Shown piece after piece: positions 1 through 43,200 of a stretch of DNA of 60,661 nt. Within the stretch, counting starts at the first letter, position 1; every line of letters begins with the position of its first letter. Source of the DNA: a virus; the IMG/VR virus record IMGVR_UViG_3300027659_000037, positions 1 to 60,661 of that record, one strand, 5' to 3'. Both the position numbers and the translations under genes were made by a program. The notes beneath the pieces were generated by a model that saw only the letters and a program-made list of their open reading frames with translations, searched no databases and had not been told where the DNA came from.

Positions 1-679
1 CAAAGGTGTAGTCCCCACCGGAGTTGGGGGCAGGCCAGACGTTGATACAGGGCAGGTTCTGCGCAAAGATTGCCGCACTGGAGGTGTGCGCCGCTGCCGT
101 AGTGTAGTTCTGCCCACGGGTGCAATTTATCAGGTTGTTGCCGTCCACATTGGTGTACCCAATGGTCTCAGAGTCAATCTTGATAAACCCAGTCGTGGTT
201 AGTGCTGATGCGTTGCTGACCGCAACGGTTGTGTCTGTGCTGGTGATTGTGCTGCTTAACGTGACAGATGTTGCATTTGTCTGCGCCGTCTGACGGTTGA
301 TCCACACTTGAATTGGACGACCAGTCGTAAGTTTGTTTGGGATGGTCGAGTAGGTAGGCTCAGAGATACGGGAGATGTTGACGTCTGTCTGATTTGACGC
401 TACACCGTTGCTCTGGCGAATGACGTGGTCAAGCAAGTCAATCGTGTCTTCTGGGAGTGGGTATACCGCTTGTCCGGTAACCATAGTAATTGCGCCTTCT
501 TCCACTGTCCACAGGTTGATGCCACGGTTTGCCCACTCGATGGTGAGCAAGTTCAGCGAACGGCGTGCCGTACGAAACTCATAACCAGTACGAACCTCTA
601 AACCCGCCCGCTCATAGGCTTCCTCGATCATCTCATTGAGATCAAGGTTAAACGAATCGGAAGAGGATACGTAAGCCAT
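1..679 (-). CDS. Tail adaptor / tail-tubular-A-like structural protein (3' end outside window)
   Basis: ATG at 679; the frame stays open to the left edge, giving about 226 residues without a stop. The N-terminal 60 or so residues are helical (DLNEMIEEAYERAG, then an Arg-rich helix and a WANRG segment), as in head-tail adaptor proteins of podoviruses such as T7 gp11. Residues about 145-205 form an inserted module with a Thr/Val-rich beta start, IDSE, YT, CTRG and AAAH, which also occurs in the 746-aa tail protein at 52319-54559. It is the last gene in the left block of the late operon. The adaptor role is inferred from fold impression and position. Confidence 0.65.
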   Translation of the reverse strand, partial: MAYVSSSDSFNLDLNEMIEEAYERAGLEVRTGYEFRTARRSLNLLTIEWANRGINLWTVEEGAITMVTGQAVYPLPEDTIDLLDHVIRQSNGVASNQTDVNISRISEPTYSTIPNKLTTGRPIQVWINRQTAQTNATSVTLSSTITSTDTTVAVSNASALTTTGFIKIDSETIGYTNVDGNNLINCTRGQNYTTAAAHTSSAAIFAQNLPCINVWPAPNSGGDYTF

Positions 680-1199: not shown

Positions 1200-1562
1200 T
1201 TAACACACCGTCCCGCGAGTCTTACCACGCTGAGCTATACCATCCGCGCGCGCAGAAGCTGTACCACCTTTGGAGAAGTTCTCAGGATAGGTTTTAGCAG
1301 CGTTGTAGGCCTTGTCTTTTTTGGTCTGCATCTTGGCATCGTCAGCTTCTTGAACCATTTGTTTTTCTTTTTGGTTTTTTTCAGCTTGAGCGGTATCAGC
1401 CCTATTTTGCGCTTTTTCCAGCCCTTTATAAGCGGTTCCAAGTACAGCGCCGGTTATTCCAGCGCCTGCAATTTTAGCGCCTACTCCACTTCCGCCACCG
1501 CCGCCACGACCGCCGCCCTCAAGCGGCTGATCGTCCATCCCGTGCCTTGTATGTCTTCCCAT
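1200..1562 (-). CDS. Late protein with conserved DDQxLEGGG start and RADG-GKTRG end
   Basis: 120 aa. The N-terminus has MDDQPLEGGG followed by a glycine run. Next come a short Gly/Ala hydrophobic stretch and a charged helix, then KGGTASARADGIAQRGKTRG and a final Cys. The same two ends flank unrelated middles in the proteins at 2793-3221 and 11073-11576, so the ends look like shared functional tags. Start could be at 1562 or at the internal Met before DDQ (about 1538). Tightly packed between neighbours. Function unknown. Confidence 0.7.
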   Translation of the reverse strand: MGRHTRHGMDDQPLEGGGRGGGGGSGVGAKIAGAGITGAVLGTAYKGLEKAQNRADTAQAEKNQKEKQMVQEADDAKMQTKKDKAYNAAKTYPENFSKGGTASARADGIAQRGKTRGTVC

Positions 1563-1565
1563 GAT

Positions 1566-2210
1566 TTAGCACATCTTTCCGCGAGTCTTACCGCGCTGAG
1601 CAATACCGTCACCACGACTGGAAGCCATACTGCTAGAAGCCATCTTCTTGACCGCGCCACCATGCTTCATTCCCGTTGCCGTCTGAACTTTGCCGCTTAA
1701 ATCACGGTATGTTTTGCCTTTATTTTCATCCGCTTTACGCATCGCCGGGCTGACGTAAGGTTTATTTGCATAATCCACAATGGCGGTTCCTACATCAGAC
1801 GCAGCTTTTTTTATCATGCGTTCATTTTCTTCACTTTTGCGACCTTGTTCGCCAAGATTAGGCTCTGAAGTTTCTTTGGGGGCAGGCGCGTCGGTTGCTT
1901 TTTTAATGTTACTGCTTAACCCAAACAAATCCGTAATATTTTTTGATCTATACGGTTTGTTTTCAACTTTTTCTTCGACTGCGGCTTTGCCAGCATTAGC
2001 TTCGGCTTTTTCTTCTTCGTCTTGATGAGCTTTTTGATTGGCTAGACCTTTAGCCTCTAAAGCTTTCATATCAACTTTTGAAGATGCTTTACTGGCGGGG
2101 GCAGAATCATCCTTCATTTTGGTGTTGTACTTCTTACCGCCAAATTCAAATTCTGTGTTGCCTGCTTCGCGGGCTGCACGGAATGCTTTACCAAATGCAC
2201 TTGTTGCCAT
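1566..2210 (-). CDS. Charged late protein with C-terminal RGDG-GKTRG tag
   Basis: 214 aa, start ATG 2210 preceded by an AGGAG-type site. Long, highly charged and probably largely disordered or coiled, with many Lys, Glu and Ala. Near the end are HGGAVKKM and then SSRGDGIAQRGKTRG, ending in Cys, a variant of the tag carried by several other small late proteins here. The N-terminal FGKAFRAAREAG segment is a short amphipathic helix. No enzymatic motif seen. Confidence 0.7.
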   Translation of the reverse strand: MATSAFGKAFRAAREAGNTEFEFGGKKYNTKMKDDSAPASKASSKVDMKALEAKGLANQKAHQDEEEKAEANAGKAAVEEKVENKPYRSKNITDLFGLSSNIKKATDAPAPKETSEPNLGEQGRKSEENERMIKKAASDVGTAIVDYANKPYVSPAMRKADENKGKTYRDLSGKVQTATGMKHGGAVKKMASSSMASSRGDGIAQRGKTRGKMC

Positions 2211-2219
2211 GATTACTCC

Positions 2220-2615
2220 TTAGCAGGCTTTGCCGCCCATTTTCATCTTAACCATTTTTGCCTTGGTTTTGCCTTTAGAAGCAACGCCGTCAGCCGCTTT
2301 ATGACCAGCAGCCATGCCGCCTTTTTTCATCATGCCCATACCACCAGCAGGAGGGCGGGGGGCAGCGGGGGCAGCGCCCATAGCGCCCATAGCGCCTCTA
2401 CCAGCACCCATACCGCGTTTTTTGGCAGCCATAGCAGCCATCATCTTGGGATCCATTCTTGTAGCCATCTCGCCACCTCTTTTAAAAGTTTTGCCTTTAT
2501 CGGCGTTTGAAAAATCTTTGCCCACAGACTGTGGGACTCCGGCTTTCTTGGCAAACGCTGGATTATGGGCCACCGCTTCCATGAATCTGTGTTGCTTGGC
2601 GCTACTACTCGGCAT
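2220..2615 (-). CDS. Met/Gly-rich late protein with KxGKTKxK tag
   Basis: 131 aa. The N-terminus (SSSAKQHRFMEAVAHNPAFAKKAGVPQSVG) is of a kind I recall in many uncultured phage proteins. The centre is a low-complexity Met/Ala/Gly/Pro stretch, and the C-terminus holds MKKGGMAAGHKAADGVASKGKTK and a final Cys. The 3' end of the holin-like gene overlaps this start by 11 bases. Function unknown; probably virion-associated. Confidence 0.7.
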   Translation of the reverse strand: MPSSSAKQHRFMEAVAHNPAFAKKAGVPQSVGKDFSNADKGKTFKRGGEMATRMDPKMMAAMAAKKRGMGAGRGAMGAMGAAPAAPRPPAGGMGMMKKGGMAAGHKAADGVASKGKTKAKMVKMKMGGKAC

Positions 2616-2796
2616 CGTCTTTCTTGCGATTCAACAATTTCTTCATAGTCTCGGTTTCGTAGATGCGGATTGCCACCCAAACAATACTGAGCAGTGCTGA
2701 GACAGCGGGTAAGAATTCCACAAGCGTTCCTATGACGGTGATAAGTGATACGCCATCAAGGGCATACTTTAGAGTTTCTTGGTTTTGTTCATTCAT
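2605..2796 (-). CDS. Small membrane protein, holin candidate
   Basis: 63 aa. A short polar N-terminus (MNEQNQETLKYALDG) is followed by two closely spaced hydrophobic stretches (about residues 15-30 and 31-45), then a basic, charged tail ending in KKDDAE. This size and topology suit a small phage holin. A second holin-like gene lies beside the endolysin at 54900-55412, so the two may divide roles. Start ATG 2796 overlaps the preceding gene's stop. Confidence 0.6.
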   Translation of the reverse strand: MNEQNQETLKYALDGVSLITVIGTLVEFLPAVSALLSIVWVAIRIYETETMKKLLNRKKDDAE

Positions 2797-3221
2797 ACAA
2801 ACCTACCTTTTGTTTTGCCTTTGACAGCGCAGCCGTCAGCACGGGCTGAAGCCGTTCCCCCTTTAGCCATGCCTTTACCGGAAATGATTTCACCCATTCC
2901 AGCACGAGAAGGAGTTTTATCGTCTTTTTTATCCCCAGAGTCATCACTGACGGCGGTTTTTATACCCGCTGCGGCAGCACCAGCACCTGCTGCACGAACA
3001 CCTGTTCGGGCCGCTGCTCGATCTTGGGCATCTTCAGTCACCTTCTTAGCGCTACCACGTAAGTGTGAGGTGTCTTGATTGATTTTTTTGAGATCGCCCA
3101 TTGTGCTGGAACTACCTCTCAAAGAAGGCATCTTGCTGTACTTGGTTCCGCTGATGCTTGCGCCTGCGCCGCCGCCCTCAAGTATTTGGTCATCGGTTGG
3201 TTTCTTGCCAATTTTTGCCAT
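2793..3221 (-). CDS. Late protein with conserved DDQxLEGGG start and RADG-GKTKG end
   Basis: 142 aa. Starts MAKIGKKPTDDQILEGGG and ends KGGTASARADGCAVKGKTKGRFV. The middle is Ala/Gly/Asp-rich and unlike its relatives at 1200-1562 and 11073-11576. Basic ends around an acidic middle. No enzymatic motif. The gene overlaps the downstream holin candidate by 4 bases, consistent with coupled expression in the late operon. Confidence 0.72.
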   Translation of the reverse strand: MAKIGKKPTDDQILEGGGAGASISGTKYSKMPSLRGSSSTMGDLKKINQDTSHLRGSAKKVTEDAQDRAAARTGVRAAGAGAAAAGIKTAVSDDSGDKKDDKTPSRAGMGEIISGKGMAKGGTASARADGCAVKGKTKGRFV

Positions 3222-3228
3222 GATTACC

Positions 3229-3483
3229 TCAACACTTCCATCTTGCTAAAGAAGCCGCCTTGCGGGTAGGCTTGCCTTTTTCATCTTTCATCGGGCCGGG
3301 CATACCAGACATACGTGCACAGAAAGAATCCTTGCGCTTGCCGCCTCCGGGCTGTGGAGCCTTCAAGTTGCTTCCTGTTGCTGCGTTGTACTTGGCACGG
3401 CCTTTGGCAGTCAAGCCCGCCCCCTTGGAAGCGGGTAGTTTTTCACCACGACCAATTGCAAGGGAGGGAGTTTTTTTAGCCAT
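3229..3483 (-). CDS. Small basic conserved phage protein ending in Cys
   Basis: 84 aa. Contains LPASKGAGLTAKGRAKYN, a K/P/G-rich linker, then FCARMSGMPGPMKDEKGKP and RKAASLARWKC at the end. This ordered set of motifs is widespread in phages and I associate it with a DUF6321-like family (from memory). Its function is not known to me. Strongly basic, so nucleic acid or capsid-surface contact is possible. Confidence 0.75.
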   Translation of the reverse strand: MAKKTPSLAIGRGEKLPASKGAGLTAKGRAKYNAATGSNLKAPQPGGGKRKDSFCARMSGMPGPMKDEKGKPTRKAASLARWKC

Positions 3484-3772
3484 AGAACACCGAGAGGCTG
3501 GTTAACGAGCCAACGCTCAGCGTCAAATACAAACCTGTACTTGCCAAAATACCTTCGCCGGGGACGAGGACATACGTAGAGTTGGCTACGGTTTGACTTG
3601 TAATGTCCATTGTGAACAAAACCTCGCCCGAGGCGCTACCGTCACGAATTTCAAATGTGCACGCGGTACTTATAGCAGGTGTAACAACAAAACCTTTGAG
3701 TCGTGTACGACCTGCGTAATACGACCCAGCGGTACTGCGGTGCGCTGACTTAACGTCTGTTTGCATTGCCAT
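3476..3772 (-). CDS. Beta-rich small structural protein
   Basis: 98 aa from ATG 3772, which is preceded by GGAG at suitable spacing; an extra upstream in-frame start lacks such spacing. After MQTDVKSAHRST the sequence is beta-rich, ending in short strands rich in Thr, Ser and Leu. Size and composition fit a head decoration or completion protein. Located two genes downstream of the capsid gene. The role is inference only. Confidence 0.65.
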   Translation of the reverse strand: MAMQTDVKSAHRSTAGSYYAGRTRLKGFVVTPAISTACTFEIRDGSASGEVLFTMDITSQTVANSTYVLVPGEGILASTGLYLTLSVGSLTSLSVFYG

Positions 3773-3792
3773 AATCAATCTCCTTTAGAACA

Positions 3793-3806
3793 GGGGCCAA
3801 AGCCCC
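3793..3806 (-). promoter_or_regulatory. GC-rich hairpin between two late genes
   Basis: GGGGC/GCCCC stem with a 4-base loop in the gap between the genes at 3816-4307 and 3476-3772. There is no clean T-run after it, so it may be an attenuator or mRNA-stabilising hairpin rather than a terminator. Confidence 0.3.
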
Positions 3807-3815
3807 TTAGATCAA

Positions 3816-4307
3816 TTATTGTTGAGTGGCGGTTGGGTTTGCAGAACCGTCAGAGTCTTTGACGACATACGTCAAGGTCAATATGCCAGCACCAGATGTG
3901 GCGGTGACGTTGGCCTGTGTAAACGTGATGATTGCGTCTGACGTACCTACGTTGTTACACAGCACAGCGGCGGCGGCAGAGTTATTGCCCAGCAAAATAT
4001 TTACGATGCCAGTGTTTGTAAATACGCTTCCGTTTGCGGCTGTATTAATTGCAACAGCATTAGCGAAGAGTGCGTATGTAGGAGTTGTTGTTGCATATGC
4101 AACAGTGGTGTTAAACGCCGCAGAAAGAATCTGTGAGCCTGCGGGAATCGTGAAGGCAACCGTAGCTGCTGTAATGTCCGTGTACAAAATGTCTTTAGAC
4201 TGCGATACGACTGTCGCGCCCAAATTGCGGATAGTGCCAGCGGTAGAGCCGGTGGTGTTTTTAACAGTGCCCAACAACCAAGGGCCAAGGTGAGTTGCGA
4301 ATCCCAT
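3816..4307 (-). CDS. Beta-rich structural protein, head decoration candidate
   Basis: 163 aa. Alternating Thr/Val/Ala/Ser-rich segments predict beta strands throughout, with few charged residues. It starts MGFATHLGPWLLGTV and ends with a short polar tail. First gene after the terminator that follows the capsid gene, a usual position for decoration or stabilising proteins. No specific family recognised. Confidence 0.65.
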   Translation of the reverse strand: MGFATHLGPWLLGTVKNTTGSTAGTIRNLGATVVSQSKDILYTDITAATVAFTIPAGSQILSAAFNTTVAYATTTPTYALFANAVAINTAANGSVFTNTGIVNILLGNNSAAAAVLCNNVGTSDAIITFTQANVTATSGAGILTLTYVVKDSDGSANPTATQQ

Positions 4308-4410
4308 AAGAATATCTCCATGCGTTATAGCGTATCAATCTTGCATGTCAGTCAGCCGGGACTGTTTGATACGCCGGGTTTCCCGGAATGTCTTCAATAT
4401 ACATCAAAAG

Positions 4411-4435
4411 AAAAGGAGGCACAAGGCCTCCTTTT
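4411..4435 (-). terminator. Rho-independent terminator after major capsid gene
   Basis: Perfect 10-bp inverted repeat (AAAAGGAGGC / GCCTCCTTTT) with a 5-base loop. On the minus strand it is followed by CTTTT. It lies 9 bases past the capsid stop. It likely gives partial termination and so lowers expression of the genes beyond the abundant capsid protein. Confidence 0.85.
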
Positions 4436-4443
4436 CAGTCTTT

Positions 4444-5355
4444 TTAGGACGAACCGGGGGAACCAAACATTCCCAACGGATCAGACCAGCCGAACGAATA
4501 ACGCTCGCGGGACTTGTAACGCACGTTACCGGTGTCAAAGTCGCCGTCCATGCTGTTAGACAGCGGAGTACGGACAAAGTGCTTCATACCGTTAGGCACG
4601 TCAGTAGTCAGATACCAACCATTGTTGTCGGTCAAGAAGTGGTTCTGTGTGTATCCCTCAGGGATAGAACCGTTATTCTTCAGAGCATTGATATCGTTGT
4701 CGGTAGTGCCAACACGCAGGCTGGTTTCCAACAGGCGGGTAGCCACGAATTGCAATGCAGGGGGAATAATTAACTTCTTAGGCTTAGCAGCGATCAACAG
4801 GCCACGCTCGTCTGTCCAAGCAGCGATCTGAATAACAGCGTTTTCCAACGAAGTTTCATTCAAGTCAGCAGCAGTAGCAGGACGGTTGGAGTTAGTGCCA
4901 CCGTTAATCAGCGGGTGAGCAGTGCTGAACAGAGCAACGCCATCACCACCGGTATAAGCGGCAGAGAAACCATTGTTCAAAACAGCAGCAGATTTAACCT
5001 GCTTGGTGTAGGACATAGCGCGAGCCAGACCTTTGGTGTAGCGAGCAGACAAGCTGTCGTACAAGTTGTCCTCAATGGCCTCTTCGGTCAATGAGAAACC
5101 CAAAGCAATGGTTTCGTGGTTATATCGAGCAGTCCATGCTTCCTGTGCATTGTCGTAAGCGATGGCGGAGCCTTCACTCTTAACAGGAGCAGCAGAGAAA
5201 CCAGACAGTTTAGTCTCTTCTTCAAAAGAACGCTCTGAAGTTTCGGTTTCATAAATTTCTTTATGCTCCTCGCCGTAGCGAGAATATTCCAAACCAAACA
5301 AAGCATTCAAACCGGGAAGGAGTTCCTTCAGTAGTTGCGCGCGTGAAATAGCCAT
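4444..5355 (-). CDS. Major capsid protein (HK97-like fold)
   Basis: 303 aa with a strong AAGGAG site before ATG 5355. Contains an N-terminal helical arm with acidic E-rich loop, a spine-like region rich in Glu/Ala/Lys, LFSTAHPL and IPPALQFVATRLL segments, and a C-terminal RYKSRERYSFGWSDPLGMFGS. These resemble the Mu/T7-type capsid subunits I know. Its place after scaffold and its own terminator support this call. Confidence 0.88.
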   Translation of the reverse strand: MAISRAQLLKELLPGLNALFGLEYSRYGEEHKEIYETETSERSFEEETKLSGFSAAPVKSEGSAIAYDNAQEAWTARYNHETIALGFSLTEEAIEDNLYDSLSARYTKGLARAMSYTKQVKSAAVLNNGFSAAYTGGDGVALFSTAHPLINGGTNSNRPATAADLNETSLENAVIQIAAWTDERGLLIAAKPKKLIIPPALQFVATRLLETSLRVGTTDNDINALKNNGSIPEGYTQNHFLTDNNGWYLTTDVPNGMKHFVRTPLSNSMDGDFDTGNVRYKSRERYSFGWSDPLGMFGSPGSS

Positions 5356-5366
5356 GATTTAGCTCC

Positions 5367-6209
5367 TTATGCACCAGTGGCAGAGTAGTAACCGTGCAGT
5401 GCTTGGTTAAATTTAACCAATACTTCAGGAAACTGGGTGAACACAATAGTGGATGAGCTAGGAATAGCTGTAACACTGCCGGGGACTGCAATCGCAGCGT
5501 TAATCGTAACTGATGTCGCAGCGGCTGACGCAGCGGCGGTTACAAAAGAACCTGTTTGAATGATTTGCCCATTTGCTGCAACGTAGGATACATCTGTTCC
5601 AATAGGGATTGCGCTAGGCAAGCCAGAACCTGTTAAGGTAATTGTTGTAGAAGATGAAGAGCCGGTTGCAGTCGTAGTAATAGCAGACTCATGTATCAAG
5701 CCAACCAAACGCAAAGGTAAGGTGGTTGTTACTGGAGTTGCCGTAGGAGCTAAAACTGCGTTAGCAGAATTACCAGTGGTTGTGCTACCTGTATTGTTAA
5801 TGGCGGACAGGTTGGTACCAATCATAGCCATAGCAGCGGAAGCAATAACAGTAGTGGCGGAACATACAGCAGCCTTAAACACAGCATCAGGATCGTCCAA
5901 CACATAGGCTTCACAGTCACCTGCAAGAGTTCCTGAAGGCCAGTATTGGTTGAATTGCTTTTGCTTAGTTAAAGGATTGGTGAAAGTACAACCCAAGAAA
6001 ATACCAACCGTTTGGTTTAAACCAGTGCCAGTAGAAACTGAGGCACGAGTTACAGAACCACGCGATAGTACGACGAAATCACCGTAAAAGATGTCGGTCG
6101 CATAACCGTACTGGATGGGGTACATACGGGTAGAACCCGCAAATACTTGACCACCAATTAGGTTCTGCGGCAACAGCCCGTACGGAGCTGATACAGCGGG
6201 ATAAGCCAT
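5367..6209 (-). CDS. Virion structural protein, capsid decoration/minor capsid candidate
   Basis: 280 aa, AAGGAG site before ATG 6209. Starts MAYPAVSAPYGLLPQNLIGG; the sequence is Gly/Thr/Ala/Val-rich with YWPSGTLAGDCEAYVLDDPDAVF and long Thr/Ser beta stretches, ending with a region that predicts a compact beta domain. Directly upstream of the major capsid gene. Similar proteins lie next to capsid genes in uncultured phages; a decoration or spike role is inferred. Confidence 0.7.
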   Translation of the reverse strand: MAYPAVSAPYGLLPQNLIGGQVFAGSTRMYPIQYGYATDIFYGDFVVLSRGSVTRASVSTGTGLNQTVGIFLGCTFTNPLTKQKQFNQYWPSGTLAGDCEAYVLDDPDAVFKAAVCSATTVIASAAMAMIGTNLSAINNTGSTTTGNSANAVLAPTATPVTTTLPLRLVGLIHESAITTTATGSSSSTTITLTGSGLPSAIPIGTDVSYVAANGQIIQTGSFVTAAASAAATSVTINAAIAVPGSVTAIPSSSTIVFTQFPEVLVKFNQALHGYYSATGA

Positions 6210-6228
6210 TTAAGGACTCCTTGAAAAT

Positions 6229-6696
6229 TTAAGTACCTTTGCCAAAGCTTGTCGAAGACTTGTTCTCTCTAAAGAGCGGCATCCTCGGATCACTTTGACG
6301 CATTAGGCTATTGTCTACAGCTTCCGCTTGAGCTTTTGTGAACTTCGTAACGTAATCCTCACGTTGCTCCATAAACTCAGACGGGCACTTGCAAAGCAAC
6401 AGCCCACCAATTTCGATATTATTTTTAAATCGACTATCGGGGTCGATTAAGAACTGGAACTTGGGTTGTTCTTCAATTGCGACTGGCTCCCAACCTTCCC
6501 GGAACTTGCCGGAAATGTTTCGTTGGTCTACCTTGTCCAAAGTAGAAACCCTTACCCATCTGTACGCATATCCCGGCTGTTTATCAGGCTCAGGAAGGAG
6601 ATCCGCTTGCTGCCACTGTTTAGGGCGCTCTTGCGTAGCTCTGCTCTGCATTTCACGCGACAATCTGTTTTCTGCTACTTTTACGTCTGTTGCCAT
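6229..6696 (-). CDS. Conserved head-region protein, function unknown
   Basis: 155 aa. Basic N-terminus (RLSREMQSRATQERPKQW), then WVRVSTLDKVDQRNISGKFREGWEPV, FQFLIDPDSRFKNNIEIGG and LLLCKCPSEF, and an alpha-helical tail. No catalytic motif. The GGAGG site before it lies inside the 3' end of the scaffold gene, so expression is likely coupled. Placed between scaffold and capsid genes. Confidence 0.65.
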   Translation of the reverse strand: MATDVKVAENRLSREMQSRATQERPKQWQQADLLPEPDKQPGYAYRWVRVSTLDKVDQRNISGKFREGWEPVAIEEQPKFQFLIDPDSRFKNNIEIGGLLLCKCPSEFMEQREDYVTKFTKAQAEAVDNSLMRQSDPRMPLFRENKSSTSFGKGT

Positions 6697-6697
6697 C

Positions 6698-7672
6698 TTA
6701 GGCCTCCAATTTCATCATTTCACGGGCGTACTGCTCGTTGGTTAATCTGAGTTTTTTAGCCAAGGCAACTTGTGTCTTTGTTAGCACGACCTGTTTGGGG
6801 GCGGTACTACGTTTAGCAGGTGCAACAACTGTGCTTGGTTTTGTACGTTGAGGTTTTTCCTCATCGTTGTTTGTAGTCGCCGCGAATTCTTCTGGGAATC
6901 TACGTCTGACTTCTTTGTCAATACTGCCGTAGTATTCGTCAGTACCTATATATCCACGTCCGTACCGTTCTGAAAGCTCTTCGTGGAATCCTTCAGCAAA
7001 TTTGCGCATCGCTAATTTGTTACGGTCTACAAACCATGGGTTGTTCGAGACCCAGTTAGCGACCTTAGGATCCATCTGCTGAGTTGCAGGCTGGTTAGTT
7101 TGGGTAGTTTGTACACGATTTTCATCAGTTTGTACAGTGGGCCTGAAATTCTTTGCTTTATCAAGCTTCATTTCTGCTCGAACTAACTCTTTCTGCGCAG
7201 CCAAAACTTTATCAGAATCTCCAGAGTCATAAGCCTCTTTGTAATTCCGTTCAGCTTTGTCAATTTCCATTTCAGCAGAACTTTGATACGTAGAAATTAA
7301 TTCTTTCTCGCCTGTTTGAATCATAGACTTGAGTCTTTTATTCTCGTCTAGAATTCGTTCAGCGACTGTCAGCGCCTCTTGTTGTTCACGCAGGGCTGAT
7401 TCTTTTGCACGCCGCTCGTCATGCCAAGCCTTTTTATATTGCTTAAACTTGACTTTTACGTTCTTTGTGTACTCTTCAGACTCATCAGCATTTTCAAGTT
7501 CTTGCTGTGTGTTTTCGTCCAAAGGGGGCGCTACAAATCTATCTTCTTGGGGTGTGTCGTCAACGATCTTTACCTCGACTTCATCCTCCTCAATAGTGAT
7601 ATTTACCTCTTGGGCATTCTTTTCTTCCTCGAGTTCATCGGGAAATCTGTATGGATCACCAAATCTTGACAT
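6698..7672 (-). CDS. Scaffold protein (capsid assembly)
   Basis: 324 aa. Acidic N-terminus (runs of Glu/Asp around residues 10-60), a long coiled-coil of Lys/Glu/Ala about residues 70-175, a Gln/Thr/Pro linker, and a basic C-terminal segment. This acidic-coil-basic pattern immediately before the capsid genes is typical of phage scaffolding proteins. No protease motif seen, so processing, if any, is not shown. Confidence 0.82.
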   Translation of the reverse strand: MSRFGDPYRFPDELEEEKNAQEVNITIEEDEVEVKIVDDTPQEDRFVAPPLDENTQQELENADESEEYTKNVKVKFKQYKKAWHDERRAKESALREQQEALTVAERILDENKRLKSMIQTGEKELISTYQSSAEMEIDKAERNYKEAYDSGDSDKVLAAQKELVRAEMKLDKAKNFRPTVQTDENRVQTTQTNQPATQQMDPKVANWVSNNPWFVDRNKLAMRKFAEGFHEELSERYGRGYIGTDEYYGSIDKEVRRRFPEEFAATTNNDEEKPQRTKPSTVVAPAKRSTAPKQVVLTKTQVALAKKLRLTNEQYAREMMKLEA

Positions 7673-7681
7673 GTACGCTCC

Positions 7682-8092
7682 TTATTTGCGTTTGATGCCA
7701 CGGGGGTCTTCTACAACACCTTCGACTGAGTCGTCGTTGATGATGCGGAATTCGCGTCCGTGGATGAGTAGGCGTGAGCCTGCGTTGGGTCGAGTCAACA
7801 CAAAATCACCTTTTTGACACCAAGGCCCAGTCGGAAACTTTGCCTTGTCTGCGTAGCAGTCTGGGCCAAGATCGACAACGAACAAAACTGTAGTGAGCAG
7901 CTCGTCGTATCGCAGGGTCTCGTCTGCTTTGATAATCCCAATATCGCCTTCATACTCCTTCTCCTGCTCGGGGATCGCGCACAGGATTTTGTAGCCCGCA
8001 GGCTTTGGTAGTTGAGTCGCCTTCTCTTCATCTTTCTTGTGCATGATCGCTTCGAGGTTTAGCGCCAGCCCAAGATCTAAAGTTTCACTCAT
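7682..8092 (-). CDS. GroES-like co-chaperonin
   Basis: 136 aa. From about residue 25 the sequence follows the GroES pattern: a PAGYKILCAI first strand, a mobile-loop-like segment, an L-V/V-DLGPDCY barrel strand, QKGDFVLTRPNAGSRL, and a final VEGVVEDP. Phage co-chaperonins such as T4 gp31 help fold capsid protein with host GroEL; that role is inferred here. It lies between portal and scaffold, i.e. in the head-assembly block. Confidence 0.8.
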   Translation of the reverse strand: MSETLDLGLALNLEAIMHKKDEEKATQLPKPAGYKILCAIPEQEKEYEGDIGIIKADETLRYDELLTTVLFVVDLGPDCYADKAKFPTGPWCQKGDFVLTRPNAGSRLLIHGREFRIINDDSVEGVVEDPRGIKRK

Positions 8093-8291
8093 CTAATTTC
8101 TCCAAGTTTTTCGTCAGGTCTGTGATGTATCTACGAGCGGTGAGCAGACCTGTAATTTCCCCACACATCCCGCAGTACTCGTCGTACGACCTAGCAGCTC
8201 GCGCTCCCAAGGCATCTTCGAGTTGTTTGACTTTCTCGTCAATTTGTTTCGCTGTGAACTCCAGCGCTTGTCTTATTTCGTAGGACATCAT
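8085..8291 (-). CDS. Small helical conserved protein
   Basis: 68 aa. Predominantly helical (EIRQALEFTAKQIDEKVKQLEDAL...), with a CGMCG element in the middle and a Lys/Leu-rich tail. It overlaps both the portal gene (ATGA-type) and the GroES-like gene, so expression is coupled. I recall similar small proteins in aquatic phages. Function unknown. Confidence 0.65.
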   Translation of the reverse strand: MMSYEIRQALEFTAKQIDEKVKQLEDALGARAARSYDEYCGMCGEITGLLTARRYITDLTKNLEKLDE

Positions 8292-10816
8292 TCATCCTTC
8301 TTTACTGGTGTTTTTTGTGGTTGGTTTCGCATCTGTCTATCCTGCTGTTTGCCTTGATGAGACAACTGCTCCCGTTGTCTGACCATGTCCATGCCTGTAC
8401 GGAAGCCATCAGCCTCTTGTTGATGCGCGCGCTGTGCTTCATTGTTCTGGTGTTGCATTGCAATCCTGGCTCCTTCAGTCTCTTGGTTGGCCTCAATACG
8501 CTTGAGTTCAACTTGAATCTGAGCCATCTTGGCCTGCATATCAGCCATGTCTTTCTGGGCCTTACGCTGCAAGTCTTGTTGCTTGATCTGCAACTCTTGT
8601 TGCTGCAACTGGATAAGCGGATCTTGAGCTTGCTGTTGGTTCTTCTGCTGTTGAGCTTCTTGCTGGTTTTGCTGGAGAAGTTGCTGAGATGCTTGCGCTG
8701 CCATCTTAGAAACTTGAACTTCCATCTCAGGAGACATTTGTTCTTCGTCCTTCTCCTCCTCGTATGGGGGTAAGGTCTGATCCATAGTCATCTCAACTTG
8801 CTTACGGTACTCCATACCTAAATGCTCGAATACGTGAGCCATCATTGCAGCTTGTAATTGCTGAGCCATCTGAGGATTCATACCCACGATGCTTTGTATT
8901 TTTGGATCCTGCATTGCTGTCATATGAACTGCAATATGGGCTTGATGATCCTGATACAAGAAAGCCTTGACCGGCTTATTAGAAAGGATGTTCATGTTCT
9001 CTGTGACTGGGTCACGCGGCTTCATGTCCTCTGCAACTGGTATCAATTTTTGGTAGTTCTTAATACCAATCACGTCTAACATCTGTCTATGAAGCTGGGG
9101 TAGGTCATACAGTTGTGGCGCAGTCTGGGCTAATTGAAGAGCCGCCTGATACTGAACAACTTTCTGAGCCATCGTTGCTGCATTAGGATCACTTACTGGA
9201 ATCACTTCCACGTAGTCATAGTCACTCTGCTTAGCGTGACGACCGCCTTCTTCTGGCTCGTAGCTGTACTCTGTAGGAGTGTAGTCGCGGATGATATCTT
9301 TGAGTAGCTTAAACTCCTGCCTCATCGAATAATGGACACGGGCCTGAATTGCACTCATAGTTTTGAGTTGACGCTCAAGAATAGCCAGCGTTGTACCAAC
9401 CGGGGACTGGGCCGACATGTCAGCCACTTGCAGGTCAACAGTGCCAGCAAACTTACGGCCTTCATCAATGATTGTCTGGAGGAGAGCAGCCAGAACCTGA
9501 CTTGGTTCTTTGTATGGCAGCGGCATTATGTTGTCGCGTAGGTTGCCACTTGGGACGTCCATGTCACGGAACTCTCCGGGACTTATCGGTGTGTCGTCTC
9601 CTTTGGATCGAAGCCCCCGTGTTTTAAAGCCCCCGGGTAGATTCGCCAGAGTACCAGCATCCACCAACTGACGCAGGATAGAAGTGCCAGACTTGGCAAA
9701 AGCACCAATAAGATGAATAAGGCCGAAACAGTAAAATCCAAAGCCCGGGATATAGCCGTAATGCACAAAGTGAGTACGTTTAATACATTGCTCATCTTCT
9801 GGTCTCCAGTTTCTACGTATCGCTAACACGTCACCTGAACTCTTCTCAATAGTGACGATGTAAGGCAGGGCAATCCCAGTCTCATTCCCATCGTCGTCCG
9901 TATGCTCATAACCGGGCAAGTCCATCTCGACCTGCATCTCCAAGAGCTTGAAACGGTCATCCTCAGACGCCCTAAAGCCAAGCTTCTCAGCGATCTTCTT
10001 CTCTACCTCGTCCATGACATTGATCGGATCACCCAAGTCAATATCTCGGTAAAAACCTTCATGCTGCAATTTCTTAAGCTCGTTCGCAGTTTTGCGCATC
10101 ACGTGGGTCACACGTTCTGCTGAGTCCAAACTTGAAGCACCGTAGGGCACAACCACGTCCTCGGCTGGCACATACATAGAGACCTGACGATTCAAGCTGG
10201 GATCAAAGTACACCTTCTTGAACGCGTTACCCGCCAGACCCAAGCCCCACAACATGCGCTCATGCTCGGGGCGAAACTCCTTCATCACGTCCGTCAGTTG
10301 GTAGTTCATATCTACCTGTACGCGCTCAGCCGCTTTCTTCTTCTCAGGAGTCTCTTTGCCGATGATCTGAGTCTTAACTGGGCCTGCTGCTGGGAACGTA
10401 GACATCATGGTCTCAGCTTGAAACTTAACGACGGACTCACTCAATATTGGGTGAAACACACCACATGCTCCGGGCCAAGGCTCCATACGTTCTTCAAGCT
10501 TCATACCAAGCAACTCAAGACCATCTACATATGTCTGAATATAATCTTTGCGACTAGAGACATCTGCCTCATACTCACCAACAAGATCCCCAGATAAGCG
10601 CGTCAAGTCGTCATCGCTCATATCTTCAGCTAAGTTCTTGCTAAACTCGTCTTCGTCCTCAGACTTCTCCATCTCAATCTCAAAGCCCGGGCCTCTGATA
10701 CTTACAGCTTCTGGGTCTTCGATCGTGATCTCAATCGGCTCATCTTCCTCACCAAGTTGCTCTATGCCCTGAGGTGCGTCTGTATAGACTGATTTGTCCA
10801 TGTTTGTTGCCATCAT
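8288..10816 (-). CDS. Portal protein
   Basis: 842 aa. An acidic N-terminal leader of about 70 residues is followed by the portal core: DYIQTYVDGLELLG, RMEPWPGACGVFHPIL and a stem region, with WGLGLAGNAFKKVYFDP and RNWRPEDEQCIKRTHFVHYGY further on. The C-terminal 140 or so residues are Gln-rich coiled coil (MEVQVSKMAAQ...QQQ). Length matches large podovirus portal proteins. Immediately after the terminase/accessory genes, as expected. Confidence 0.92.
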   Translation of the reverse strand: MMATNMDKSVYTDAPQGIEQLGEEDEPIEITIEDPEAVSIRGPGFEIEMEKSEDEDEFSKNLAEDMSDDDLTRLSGDLVGEYEADVSSRKDYIQTYVDGLELLGMKLEERMEPWPGACGVFHPILSESVVKFQAETMMSTFPAAGPVKTQIIGKETPEKKKAAERVQVDMNYQLTDVMKEFRPEHERMLWGLGLAGNAFKKVYFDPSLNRQVSMYVPAEDVVVPYGASSLDSAERVTHVMRKTANELKKLQHEGFYRDIDLGDPINVMDEVEKKIAEKLGFRASEDDRFKLLEMQVEMDLPGYEHTDDDGNETGIALPYIVTIEKSSGDVLAIRRNWRPEDEQCIKRTHFVHYGYIPGFGFYCFGLIHLIGAFAKSGTSILRQLVDAGTLANLPGGFKTRGLRSKGDDTPISPGEFRDMDVPSGNLRDNIMPLPYKEPSQVLAALLQTIIDEGRKFAGTVDLQVADMSAQSPVGTTLAILERQLKTMSAIQARVHYSMRQEFKLLKDIIRDYTPTEYSYEPEEGGRHAKQSDYDYVEVIPVSDPNAATMAQKVVQYQAALQLAQTAPQLYDLPQLHRQMLDVIGIKNYQKLIPVAEDMKPRDPVTENMNILSNKPVKAFLYQDHQAHIAVHMTAMQDPKIQSIVGMNPQMAQQLQAAMMAHVFEHLGMEYRKQVEMTMDQTLPPYEEEKDEEQMSPEMEVQVSKMAAQASQQLLQQNQQEAQQQKNQQQAQDPLIQLQQQELQIKQQDLQRKAQKDMADMQAKMAQIQVELKRIEANQETEGARIAMQHQNNEAQRAHQQEADGFRTGMDMVRQREQLSHQGKQQDRQMRNQPQKTPVKKDE

Positions 10817-11076
10817 CTACCCTTTAGAGTTGCCCGGTTTGTACGAGCTGAATACGTAAAATCTTTTGCGGGGTGACCTGTGCTTTTCACTGCACGATCC
10901 TTTGCCCGTTCTTCAGCAGTCATCATGTTGCGTTTCTGTCCTGCTGCTGTCAGTGACCCGTCTTCCTTCATATGCCCACGCTGTTTGAGTATGGCAATCG
11001 CCGTGTCCTTGTTACCGACCTGTGCTGCAAGCCGATCAACCAACTGATTGCGTCCCATAAACTTCTGTGTAGTCAC
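10813..11076 (-). CDS. Small conserved protein of the packaging block
   Basis: 87 aa. NQLVDRLAAQVGNKDTAIAILKQRGHM at the start looks like a small helical/HTH-type unit, followed by DGSLTAAGQKRNMMTAEERAKDRAVK and a Tyr/Thr/Arg-rich tail. Conserved next to portal genes in my recollection of uncultured phages. Overlaps the portal start by 4 bases. May bind DNA; not shown. Confidence 0.7.
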   Translation of the reverse strand: MTTQKFMGRNQLVDRLAAQVGNKDTAIAILKQRGHMKEDGSLTAAGQKRNMMTAEERAKDRAVKSTGHPAKDFTYSARTNRATLKGR

Positions 11077-11576
11077 TTGACCATTCTCCCTCTAGTCTTG
11101 CCACGGGAAGCTATGCCATCTGCGCGGGAAGAAGCGGTAACCTTGCCCCCCTTTTTAAGAGGTTCAAAACCCCCGCTGTCTGGGTTGTATCTCTCCACAT
11201 CTTTCCTGCTTACCGCCCTGTTTTTGGGAACTTTTTCAATTGGTACGCGAAGCACGGAGGAGCCTTCAGAAACATTGGTCGGCACATTGTCAGACTGGGT
11301 GAAGTATTTTTGTTTTTTACCGCCTTCTTTAGGAAGCATATACCCAGATTCTTTAATTGCCTCAAGTTCTTCTGGCCCTCTTACGTTTCGACCAGCATAT
11401 TTACCAGAAGCTGGCAAACCGTCTGTTTCTGAATAAACTGAGTTTTTAACTCTTGGGCGCATGAAAACTTCGGCTTTGTCTTTGATTTTCCCCATCAAAG
11501 AACTAAACCCGCCTCCGCTCCCGCCGCCTTCAAGCAATTGTTCGTCTAGTCCGCGTTTTGAATTGTTTTTAGCCAT
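11073..11576 (-). CDS. Late protein with conserved DEQxLEGGG start and RADG-GKTRG end
   Basis: 167 aa. Starts MAKNNSKRGLDEQLLEGGGSGGG and ends ASSRADGIASRGKTRGRMVK; the middle (mostly Lys, Pro, Val, Glu) is unlike its relatives at 1200-1562 and 2793-3221. Contains a KKGGKVT element shortly before the tag. Located between large terminase and portal genes, 8-10 kb from the other members. Function unknown. Confidence 0.75.
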   Translation of the reverse strand: MAKNNSKRGLDEQLLEGGGSGGGFSSLMGKIKDKAEVFMRPRVKNSVYSETDGLPASGKYAGRNVRGPEELEAIKESGYMLPKEGGKKQKYFTQSDNVPTNVSEGSSVLRVPIEKVPKNRAVSRKDVERYNPDSGGFEPLKKGGKVTASSRADGIASRGKTRGRMVK

Positions 11577-14388: not shown

Positions 14389-14417
14389 CCCTGTAAACCC
14401 TTTATAAGGAAATGAAA

Positions 14418-15086
14418 ATGGCTAAAGCAAAAACCCTGACTGCCCAAGCAGTCGCAGTGCAGTTCACTTCAGTGACAGACATCGCAGTGCAACATGGTCA
14501 AGCAGAGAATAAGATCTCTGCCTGTGCTGAGTACGCACTGGACATAATCAAAGGCTTTCCAGTACTGAAAGAAGTCTCAGAAGAAAACGTCAAAGCCCTG
14601 CGAGACGGTTATTCTTTGCATCATCGCAGTGTCTATAAGCCTAAGACATATGCAGTCATCAGTGGACAATACTTTGAGGCAACCCCAGATCATCTGGCAA
14701 ACGACAAAGTCGAAAAGATCAACGCAACGATCGACTGGGCAATGGTCTGGACACCCAATGAGATGGCGACTGAATTCAAAGATCGTCCAGAATTAAAAAA
14801 GATCGTCGAAAAAGTACGCAAAGCACATTTAACTTATGTGTCTGACACACTGGGTAAATTGGTACGCAAAGCAGAGGCGATTTTAAAAGATCGTGCGGGT
14901 ATCAAAGCAGAACGTAGAATAGTTCTGTTTGTGAATACAGTCGGAGACTTCTTTGCAGCACAGGAAAAGTCAGTGAAAGTTAAGCAGACTCGAAGTGGCG
15001 ATGCTACTGCTAACCCTGAGAAGTTTAAGGAGGCAGTCAAAGCCTTTTGGTTAGCATATGGTCAGAGACCTACTCAGTCTAAGTAA
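14418..15086 (+). CDS. Early protein, first paralog of a tandem pair; function unknown
   Basis: 222 aa from ATG 14418 (MAKAKTLTAQ); an in-frame ATG at 14412 is only one base from the AAGGA site, so the second is preferred. Mostly helical with an IDTV/VRKAHLTYVSD... centre and a basic KSVKVKQTRSGDATANPEKFKEAVKAFW C-terminus. Clearly homologous to the next gene: shared HG(Q/K)AEN, GFP(V/I)LK, LRDGYSL, YAVI(S/N)GQYF, VEKVRKAHLTY and RGDATANPEK. No enzyme motif. Own leader and terminator. High charge suggests nucleic acid or protein binding. Confidence 0.85.
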   Translation: MAKAKTLTAQAVAVQFTSVTDIAVQHGQAENKISACAEYALDIIKGFPVLKEVSEENVKALRDGYSLHHRSVYKPKTYAVISGQYFEATPDHLANDKVEKINATIDWAMVWTPNEMATEFKDRPELKKIVEKVRKAHLTYVSDTLGKLVRKAEAILKDRAGIKAERRIVLFVNTVGDFFAAQEKSVKVKQTRSGDATANPEKFKEAVKAFWLAYGQRPTQSK

Positions 15087-15270: not shown

Positions 15271-15290
15271 TACCTGATGCAAATCAGGTA
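15271..15290 (+). promoter_or_regulatory. Leader stem-loop of second paralog gene
   Basis: TACCTGAT, GCAA loop, ATCAGGTA: a perfect 8-bp stem after the same TATTATTCTTTTA element as in the first leader and before CCCTTAAAAGGAAATG. Pairing is retained with different bases relative to 14361-14388. Confidence 0.7.
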
Positions 15291-15318
15291 TTTCAATCAA
15301 CCCTTAAAAGGAAATGTA

Positions 15319-15972
15319 ATGTCAAATCGTAAAACCCCGATAGCTCAAGCTATCAACCCCGTGGCTTTTGTCTCAATTACTGACATTGGTTTACAGCATG
15401 GCAAGGCTGAGAATCGTATTGATTCATGCGCTGAATCAGCCCTTGACCATATCGTAGGTTTCCCCATTCTCAAGGATGTCTCAACTGAGGATATCAAATC
15501 CTTGCGTGACGGCTATTCATTGGCTCACAAGGAAATCTACAAGGCTGTCACCTATGCTGTTATCAATGGACAGTATTTTCCCGCCACGCCAGAACACCTT
15601 GAAAACAAGAAGGTTGAGAAAATCGAAGCCACGATAGATTACGTCATGAGTTTCACGGCTAATCAAATGGGTACGGATTTCAAGGACAACCCCAACCTCA
15701 AGGCTGTCGTTGAGAAGGTTCGCAAGGCTCACCTCACTTATATATCTGATAAGTTAGGCAAGTTGGTGGACAAGGCTGAGAAGATTCTTAGAATACGCTC
15801 AGGTATCAAGGTTGAGCGCCAAGTGGTGTTATTCATTGATACCATGAAGAAGATATTTGAAGCACAAGGGAAATCTGTCAAGGTGAAACAATCTCAGCGT
15901 GGTGACGCCACGGCTAATCCTGAGAAATACAAAAAGGCTGTTGAAGCTTTTTGGCAAGCGTACAAAGCGTAA
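15319..15972 (+). CDS. Early protein, second paralog of a tandem pair; function unknown
   Basis: 217 aa from ATG 15319 (MSNRKTPIAQ), with AAAAGGAAA just upstream; this start matches that of the first paralog better than the in-frame ATG at 15277. It shares most of its length with the gene at 14418, including the HGKAEN, LRDGYSL, YAVINGQYF and VEKVRKAHLTY segments and the basic C-terminus. Codon choice differs at many shared positions, so the duplication is not recent. Function unknown. Confidence 0.85.
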   Translation: MSNRKTPIAQAINPVAFVSITDIGLQHGKAENRIDSCAESALDHIVGFPILKDVSTEDIKSLRDGYSLAHKEIYKAVTYAVINGQYFPATPEHLENKKVEKIEATIDYVMSFTANQMGTDFKDNPNLKAVVEKVRKAHLTYISDKLGKLVDKAEKILRIRSGIKVERQVVLFIDTMKKIFEAQGKSVKVKQSQRGDATANPEKYKKAVEAFWQAYKA

Positions 15973-40112: not shown

Positions 40113-40296
40113 ACCAGATTGGGTATTTCCGTTTGAAGTTATGGAGGTAGGGGACAGTTTCTTTGTCCCCACCCTTCGCTTTGCTGAGATGATCTACTCG
40201 ATTGACAGCGGTGCAAAACGTGCCGGTATTAGGGTCAAGTCCTACATCGTCGTCAAAGAAGATCACATCGGAGTGCGCACGTGGCGCATCCGTTAA
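40102..40296 (+). CDS. Small conserved phage protein (VGDSFFVPT type)
   Basis: 64 aa. FEVMEVGDSFFVPTLRFAEMIYSID and VRTWRI are elements I recall in many phages. Unknown function. Last gene of the early block; its stop overlaps that of the convergent 2168-aa gene. Confidence 0.72.
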   Translation: MVSEPDWVFPFEVMEVGDSFFVPTLRFAEMIYSIDSGAKRAGIRVKSYIVVKEDHIGVRTWRIR

Positions 40297-43200
40297 GGCT
40301 TGACTCCATACGCTTTAAACATTGCGATCATTTCATGTTTAATCATGTTCTCTTGCAGGATAGTCACTTTCAACATTTTATCTCGTATCTTAGGGCTTAG
40401 ACTTCCATCTAAACGGATCTGATTTGCCTCAGCCCTGAGTCTATTAAGTTCAACAACCTGTTGTTTGTAGATTTCTACAATATCCCTGTGCATGGGATTT
40501 TGCATGTCGTACTTTATTCCTGCAACTGGCGCGGCGGTATCAAATGTATTTAATTTTTGTTGGATTTCTTTTATTTGTTTTTCAACTGAACTAAATTCTC
40601 GAGAGTCCACATTGGACTTTGACCCAAAGAAAGATCCAATCAAAGGTAAATCAGTTTTAGGGTTGAACTCTTTTGCACCTTTGCTTAAATTAAACATACC
40701 GTAGATTAACTCGCCAACCTTGCCAAGACCGTCAAGATAGCTGTTTGTAAAAAAGTACAGCGTGTTAGGGCTAACATCAACTCCACCCACGCCAAGTCCC
40801 GGCACGTCTGATTTAAACAATTCTTTGGCAACGGTCTTGTATATCTCAGGAATCTTGTCCCCGCCTGTGTACGCATCGCCCATGCGTCGCGCTGTTGCGC
40901 TGTTGATATCTTGCCCAATGCCGTTTTTGTTCATTAGAAATTCGGTCAGGGGTCGAATCACAGTAGGCATCAATGAGTCAACGGCAAAAGCCAAAGGTGC
41001 TTCAGATGCGGGAATCTTAGAAATAGGAAGCGGCACAAACGAGTCTGCCATGATGGACATCACAATACTACTCATGCCATCTTTAAGGGAAGTCTGCCCA
41101 CGAGTCATGCCAGCAACTTGTGCACCCATCGCTGCAAATGCTCCCAAACCAAATCCCCACGGCACTTGAAAGATTACACCTCTGCCCAAGCCTAGACTCT
41201 CTGAAACACTGTCAGGAATATGAAACCGAGCGTTGCGAGTCCATTGCTGCATGTTGTCAGTCTTGACTGTGTTGCGCCCAAACTCATCGTCAGGAGCCAT
41301 CATCTCTGCCATCATGTACAAAAGGTACCCCATGCCAGACAAGGCAGTAATCATGATCCGTGCATTGCGTTGCTTCTCCGCGTAGGCGGTACGGAACTTA
41401 GCCACAGCCTCAGGGTCACTTTGAATGTTGGCAGGCAAACCAGCCACCACGTCATCAATGTTACGGAACGCAGGCGCAACGGCTTCAATGGAGCGTTTGG
41501 CACTGATTGCTGAGGGGCGGATAAACATGTACAACGCACCCATGCCACGGCTGTACGTACCCTTCTGCTCAAAGTTGGTCATCTCTTTTGCATAGGTCGC
41601 CGCTTGAACTGCCGCCGCTTTTTCAGCCGCAGACATCTGACCGTTGGGGCCGGGCGTTGTTGAGAGGCCGTTCGCTATTTGTTCTTTTAGGGCACGTTCT
41701 TTCTCTTGAGCGTACACCGCTGCGCGGCTGGTAAATTCAAACATGTTGTTCCATGTATCTACCAGCAGGTTGAACTGATCTAGTTTGGTGATCGTACGTG
41801 ATTTGCCAGTAGATTCAGCCAGCTTTTCCATATTGGTTTTCAAAGAGAAGCTTTGTATGTAAGTAGTCTTTGCACCGTTTTCAAGGTACTCAACCATATT
41901 CTTTACGTACGCATCCTCTTTCACCATCTTAGCAAGCAGTGCTTTGCTTTCGGGATCGCTTCGATCATGTAAGGAAGCAACTTTCCACGCCTTGGCTATA
42001 CCGTTATTGGCAACAATGTTTGCCGCCATTGATGTAGCGTACTGAAGTGCGGCAGCAGGGCCACGATCTGCACCAATGTTGAATGAATTAAACAACGCGT
42101 CGCGTATAAAGTTCATCGGCGCAAAGTTGTAGTTGTACCGTGTATGCAGCGAGCCAAAGAAGCCAGTTACTCGATTGGCAGTGTCAAGCAATGTATTGGT
42201 ATCTTGGTAGGTATACCGCAAAGAGTTCAGCAGCTTCTGATTGGTGATCTTGAGAATATCTAGTGAGCCATCTTTGTTGTAGTGAAAGATGTAATCCTCA
42301 CCCTTGTACTTCTTCATGTCGATGTTGTTGCGTTCCAAAAACTCAAAGTGCTTGATGTCCCCCGGAATAATGCCAGCTTCCATTGCATTCTTGATCGACT
42401 GTGTATAGTGTTTACGCCCCGCACGCCCCGCCGCGCGGATAGCATCGGACAAGCTCTGCAAAATTGGGTTATCGGAGACACTGAACCGACCGTCCATAGC
42501 AGCTTGGTATTCCTGCAACTCACGTCCGTTGCGGCGGCTATCAAAATCAAAACTGTCGTCAGCTTGTTTCTTGCCACGATCTTTGCCTTTGAACGGCATG
42601 TAGTTTTTAAACCCGTACAACCCAACAAGGTTTGATACAGGTGTAGACCAATAGTTGCCTTCTCTATTCAGTTCTGTCGTAGTCTTATGCAACTCACGCA
42701 TGGTCGTATAAATTGCTTGAATAGCGTTGTACTCGGCAGGGTTGTTCTGCTGCATATCAGCCAACTGCTGCTCCCGCAAGGCAACTTCAGACTGCTCAAG
42801 TCCCAACACATTGAATGCGCCGTCGTTGATATCTATGGGCATACCTTGCTTAGCTTTGCCGGGAGGCGCGGGTCTATTAAGACGTTCACGCACCTTGTCA
42901 GAAACGCGAGGGCCGTCTCCGTACGCATCAGCGTAGGTATTGGCAAGGTTGGTCAACTCAGTTCGCAAAGCTTTAAGTTGGACTTGAGTCAGTTCTGTTT
43001 TGTGGATCAAACCCGGCTTGTTGGTACGCTCGTCCCCAACAATCTGCACGCGACGTTCAGCAGGGCTGATCTGCACATTATTTTGAGTAAGCAGTTTTTG
43101 TTGACTCAAGGGCACAGTCAGTATAAATTTAACGAGCCGACGCTCAGGCTCGTGCATAGCCTCAGCAATTCTGTGCAGGCGGTTTAGCGCGGGTTTCAGG

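Follow-up and report, generated by a model that had tools for sequence, protein, structure and literature searches.

We found that five proteins encoded on the minus strand of a viral DNA record from IMG/VR (IMGVR_UViG_3300027659_000037; 60,661 bases, all of it analyzed and hereafter called the window) carry the same C-terminal tag, with the consensus GG..(S)AS.RADG[IC]Ax[RK]GKT[RK]G.[MIF][VC]. The tag is terminal and modular, is under selection at the protein level, and marks hypervariable bodies from a confined late cassette. Judged from these sequence patterns, the most likely function of the tag is virion targeting, and we give a probability of about 0.5 to the reading that it is a C-terminal signal by which passenger proteins, hypervariable and for the most part basic, are incorporated into virions. 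Since the left end of the record cuts an apparent tail-adaptor gene, the genome is incomplete.

Proteins with dissimilar middles end in one tag

The five open reading frames (ORFs) and their motifs were found on the minus strand where the original prediction had placed them. Each protein was divided into a head, a middle and a tag, and each of the ten protein pairs was scored against 500 shuffles. All pairs of tags beat 500 of 500 shuffles (z 4.7-14.3), and none of the pairs of middles is unusual (z -1.4 to 1.5), the best pair being equalled by 45 of 500 shuffles. The D(D/E)QxLEGGG heads match only among the proteins at 1200-1562, 2793-3221 and 11073-11576 (z 7.3-9.1). These tests agree with the earlier claims that the latter three proteins share LEGGG and RADG ends around unlike middles and that the proteins at 1566-2210 and 2220-2615 have related C-terminal tags. 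A tag hidden Markov model (HMM) built from other contigs matches four of the proteins (at 1200, 1566, 2793 and 11073) at E = 1e-14 to 1e-11 and the protein at 2220-2615 at E = 0.0012. A profile search over the whole record found exactly five tag places and no others.

The LEGGG-headed proteins are 120 amino acids (1200-1562; DDQPLEGGG at 1509-1535, with head z scores of 7.3 and 9.1 against the other two; tag ...GGTASARADGIAQRGKTRGTVC at 1203-1274; tag HMM E = 1e-14), 142 amino acids (2793-3221; DDQILEGGG at 3168-3194; tag ...GGTASARADGCAVKGKTKGRFV at 2796-2870) and 167 amino acids (11073-11576; DEQLLEGGG at 11520-11546; tag ...GGKVTASSRADGIASRGKTRGRMVK at 11079-11156). The two remaining proteins have other N-terminal modules. 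The 214-amino-acid protein at 1566-2210 (tag ...MASSRGDGIAQRGKTRGKMC at 1569-1649) starts with the alpha-beta-beta module FGKAFRAAREAGNTEFEFGGKKYNT (2121-2198), which is conserved in alignment A3. The 131-amino-acid protein at 2220-2615 starts with a KQHxFM three-helix domain (2499-2615), and its divergent tag, ...GHKAADGVASKGKTKAKMV at 2250-2330, is followed by about nine residues (KMKMGGKAC).

The tag is largely confined to the late cassette of one phage lineage

IMG/VR was searched with a degenerate DNA pattern for RADGxAxxGKTxG. Among the matches listed, 173 ORFs have the motif at the extreme C-terminus; 136 of the 173 end no more than four residues after it, and the others mostly carry brief extensions, for example GTMITMKNGGSC or GTMVKMRMGGKACK. 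Of the occurrences examined, nearly all come from a single tailed-phage lineage and one late cassette, in which the gene order is capsid, cement, p100, DUF6321, tagged genes, p96, p77 and adaptor. Nearly all of these relatives are metagenomic contigs with mechanically called ORFs. A protein of 59-64 amino acids near the tail genes carries an N-terminal copy (MAYKSGADGITKQGKTKGKN...; L193:7540-7719, L055:10212-10406 and L071:3812-3994). Hence, the motif is not always C-terminal.

To obtain a sample of the lineage that does not depend on the tag, we selected loci by the major capsid protein (4444-5355, minus strand; phrog_371 and PF25209). In 30 of these loci, 5 kb or more follows the capsid gene; 28 of the 30 have between one and four tags, each lying downstream of the capsid gene and on its strand. 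Nearly all tag matches in 19 records of 49-67 kb lie within one late block, the clearest exception being the window copy at 11079-11156, which is outside the cassette, between the terminase and portal genes. The lineage is uncultured and very common, with at least 600 matches in the capsid scan. Neither of the two outcomes that would have refuted the original prediction was seen: the tag is confined to the late head cassette, and it sits on many unrelated middles rather than in one homologous family.

We also compared lineages using loci in which 3.5 kb or more follows the capsid gene. The RADG tag occurs in 23 of 28 such loci from the window lineage, 1 of 24 of the DSL-LC04 type and 0 of 28 of the HTVC027P type. 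Cultured or named relatives identified through the portal (HTVC027P, DSL-LC04, Pag-Yong1 and CRP-902) lack the canonical tag, with the exception of a weak form ending RDGCAKRGRTKGRFI on a 308-amino-acid protein near the capsid genes of Pag-Yong1. With the tag alone, tblastn gave only a weak C-terminal match (MinM2, Pag-Yong1 and Pra-JY27; E = 8). A cellular signal was rejected: the bacterial and archaeal genome collection yielded 19 pattern matches, with true C-terminal tags on four contigs only (L129, L132, L140 and L143), three of which bear markers of the window phage lineage.

The tag is constant and the bodies are hypervariable

The 283 tagged bodies fall into 108 clusters, the largest of which merges at least two families. 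Across the 30 capsid-selected loci, DUF6321 is present in 30, p96 in 29 and the family of the protein at 2220-2615 (the 2220 family), the sole widely conserved tagged body, in 28; the remaining tagged bodies have a detectable homologue in a median of 0 of the 29 other loci. This pattern is partly due to fast divergence of proteins whose conserved heads are short, so a 'private' body is one that is not recognizable and not always one that is newly acquired. In an alignment of 80 diverse members, only M1, two glycines and the tag are invariant, and these 80 bodies matched no PHROG family and gave one isolated Pfam hit. This genome region resembles a series of orphan genes because conservation is mostly limited to the signal. 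When C-terminal words were counted without bias, the window lineage had parts of the tag on 20-23 body clusters; in two sister lineages no word exceeded 3-5 body clusters.

The phrog_16759 domain of the conserved 2220 body, KQHxFM...VGKDF, covers residues 1-46 (E = 2.7e-20) and is annotated as virion structural in two PHROGs. By tblastn, phiKZ (annotated PHIKZ165.1) has this domain as well, and it begins large virion structural proteins of jumbo phages. The alpha-beta-beta module FxxAFxxARxxGDxTFxWxGKxYxT (residues 5-30 of the protein at 1566-2210) is also seen in further tagged proteins, where it opens the protein or follows an M+K+YxGG leader.

AlphaFold models of the proteins at 2220-2615 and 1566-2210 have a confident N-terminal mini-domain (three helices with a predicted local distance difference test score of about 90, and alpha-beta-beta with blocks at 86-95, respectively), a poorly determined middle and a disordered tag. 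Foldseek with both models gave nothing significant. PDB searches with the capsid, portal, tag, 86-amino-acid tag variant (described below), 2220 and DUF6321 proteins had no match, nor did tblastn with the protein at 1200-1562, and no DNA similarity of the window to known phages was found. None of the PHROG and Pfam families, solved structures and papers found covers the tag, and literature searches on the tag, DUF6321 and related subjects yielded nothing of relevance.

Selection acts on the tag peptide

We found the tag residues R, DG, A, G, KT and G essentially fixed, with fourfold-degenerate tag sites 45% identical within genomes and 39% between them. Hence, constraint acts on the peptide and not on the DNA. 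The original prediction of a modular tag on unrelated late proteins is upheld in its central part, and its suggestion of a packaging signal is disfavored in the sense of a DNA element because the synonymous tag sites are close to randomized. Its further suggestion of a processing signal gained no support; no dedicated head protease was recognized among the head genes scanned, several of which match no family.

At the variable tag positions, likeness is 0.67 within a genome versus 0.585 between genomes, a difference reached by 0 of 2000 permutations. This fits a shared genome-specific partner, and common descent or gene conversion could also produce it. The alignable bodies, which are the better conserved ones, have a ratio of nonsynonymous to synonymous polymorphism (pN/pS) of 0.34, indicating purifying selection. 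Hence, these alignable bodies are real, selected proteins.

Homologous bodies differ in their tags

The DUF6321 protein ends ...ARWKC in the window and extends to forms like ...AWNCADGGYVTAADGCAIKGKTKGRMV in nine other loci, so the tag can be present or absent on a single domain. In DSL-LC04-type phages, a body beginning MPMYRKPT ends GGLVTSRGQGKVVRSKKTRIC (or VRGQGAARKTKGCKIC), and its relatives in loci L030 and L052 end in the RADG tag. Hence, homologous bodies bear different tags in different lineages. The two tags have in common a Gly-Gly hinge, an R[AG]xG core, basic character and a place at the extreme C-terminus of homologous bodies. Unlike the RADG tag, the DSL-LC04-type tag (RGQG...KKTRIC) differs after the core, is on fewer proteins and lies between the portal and GroES genes rather than after the capsid gene.

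Other endings were also seen. A protein of 86-88 amino acids about 5 kb after the capsid gene (L221:15767-16027 and relatives) ends KTSGIKIRGTGCATKGTMARGPMA, which is possibly a relative of the tag core R[AG]xGxAx[RK]G; the 86-amino-acid protein from L221 had no match in cultured phages (tblastn) or the PDB. Cassette proteins, including one member of the 2220 family, can also end in GEHxIQxKGHTRAxMPxM (L206:7293-7730 and L216:4639-5103).

Flanking genes and other features of the window

On the minus strand, the cassette is flanked upstream by the untagged DUF6321 protein (3229-3483; PF19846, E = 1e-22) and downstream by p96 (909-1199; phrog_17747, E = 5.4e-26) and p77 (679-912; phrog_14910, E = 2.6e-36). 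The small, basic p96 and p77 proteins co-occur in the otherwise different marine phages HMO-2011, HTVC034P and MEP402 (L226, L227 and L228), accompanied by DUF6321 in HTVC034P and MEP402.

Elsewhere, the truncated adaptor gene (1-679, minus strand) and a 746-amino-acid protein (52319-54559, minus strand) cross-match because of what seems to be a common inserted repeat-like domain, ..TITVDSTTAFSAAGNILIDSENISYTS... Two similar tandem ORFs of 224 and 231 amino acids (14412-15086 and 15277-15972) look like a duplication, and a 2168-amino-acid protein (40293-46799) has a large polyvalent protein associated domain (LPD38, PF18857).

A putative virion-incorporation signal

We favor the virion-incorporation reading because the tag is at the extreme C-terminus of hundreds of ORFs; because one late cassette adjoins the capsid genes in both the capsid-selected loci (28/30) and the 19 long records; because the tag stays constant as bodies turn over (median 0/29 homologues) between flanking genes kept in 29-30 of 30 loci; because DUF6321 occurs with and without the tag and homologous bodies in a sister lineage bear a different tag; because selection is at the peptide level and tags are more alike within than between genomes; because the tag is disordered in both models; because the domain of the 2220 body is annotated as virion structural; and because T-even internal proteins have the same design (PMC3012670, PMC12373910).

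Late in infection, the cassette would yield small proteins, one to six of them and mostly basic, that differ in their bodies. In their final ~28 residues, the Gly-Gly hinge followed by [S]AS.RADG[IC]Ax[RK]GKT[RK]G.[MIF][VC] would be exposed and disordered, and by binding to some conserved part of the head during assembly it would carry the protein into the particle. The bodies would be free to diverge and be exchanged because only the tag must be kept. As a likely payload, they may reach the cell together with the DNA and act as infection begins, or may help in DNA compaction. Under this reading, we infer a virion location, a receptor and injection.

Several observations weigh against this reading. 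The bodies look largely disordered, and the 80 diverse ones matched none of the known effector families. A receptor was sought through covariation of tag type with 11 phage proteins, and the signal was weak and spread out. Several bodies also combine recurrent short N-terminal modules with unalignable middles, a layout that tethers would fit as well.

The T-even internal proteins (Ip1-3 and relatives) have an N-terminal capsid-targeting sequence (PMC3012670, PMC12373910). Like them, the tagged proteins are highly diverse, small products of a late hotspot, several per genome, with only one short terminal signal in common. Since the signal here is at the opposite end, C-terminal rather than N-terminal, and is unrelated in sequence, the tagged proteins are not members of the T-even system. 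The tagged lineage also differs in being podovirus-like, with a Mu gpT/HK97-type capsid protein. The T-even signal is removed by a prohead protease; no dedicated protease was recognized among the head genes scanned here, several of which match no family. Packaging in the head and injection belong to the T-even system; by analogy, the best reading is that the tag would work like the T-even capsid-targeting sequence.

Encapsulin cargo-loading peptides are short C-terminal peptides that address unrelated proteins to an HK97-fold shell, into which the peptides dock. The tag may resemble them in this, but it is a different and longer sequence and concerns a phage head rather than a cellular compartment. 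P22-type scaffolding proteins have a short, basic C-terminal coat-binding segment. The tag is likewise short, basic and C-terminal and would, like that segment, be expected to attach to the shell from within; unlike the segment, it is on many small proteins and is missing from the scaffold candidate of the window (6698-7672).

Alternative explanations

The main rival, which we consider less likely, is that the proteins are two-ended structural tethers, with the N-terminal module and the C-terminal tag binding different parts of the virion and the middle a spacer under little sequence constraint. This would account for family A3, which is conserved at its two ends only, for the middles predicted to be largely disordered, and for the recurrent N-terminal modules (LEGGG, KQHxFM, alpha-beta-beta and M+K+YxGG), at least one of which is in 124 of 283 bodies and almost never in shuffled ones. 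However, 159 of 283 bodies have no recurrent module, genomes differ in copy number (one to six), DUF6321 works whether or not it has the tag, and purifying selection acts on the alignable bodies, though these are the better conserved ones.

An improbable alternative is that the tag is a general nucleic-acid-binding basic tail, with the proteins coating or compacting packaged DNA and no specific receptor needed. The tag region is strongly basic (median net charge +7), as are most bodies and the small neighbors p96, p77 and DUF6321, and when Foldseek was run with the 2220 model, its best matches, none of them significant, were for the most part helix-turn-helix domains that bind DNA. However, exact residues are fixed rather than charge alone, and charge-driven binding requires neither a strict C-terminal position nor lineage-specific tag types.

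We give still less weight to the idea that the partner of the tag in the cell is not part of the virion (it might be an assembly chaperone, host polymerase or membrane protein) and that the proteins act late and stay outside the particle. A phage GroES gene is nearby, but the tag is strictly confined to the capsid-adaptor interval and one tagged body belongs to a domain family with a virion annotation. It is very unlikely that the gene ends share a repeat, a recombination site or a recent gene duplication at the DNA level, with a peptide lacking function: the tagged genes lie end to end and shared 3' sequence could aid reshuffling, but the motif is in frame and C-terminal, with amino acids essentially fixed over variable fourfold sites.

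Implications

A broader and doubtful possibility, again drawn from sequence patterns, is that each of these aquatic phage lineages uses a C-terminal loading code of its own, recognized by the shell of that lineage, to load fast-evolving effectors injected for early infection; this would be encapsulin-like addressing in free phages. The codes would be RADG...GKTRG, RGQG...KKTRIC and possibly the RGTGCATKG and GEHxIQxKGHTRA variants, and packaged or counter-defense proteins would then be findable by tag alone. In this very common, uncultured lineage, the tag marks about a hundred clusters of small proteins that could not otherwise be classified. If it is a loading signal, it would be a one-line finder for packaged, possibly injected proteins in metagenomic phages and may serve as a tag for placing foreign proteins inside a phage head.
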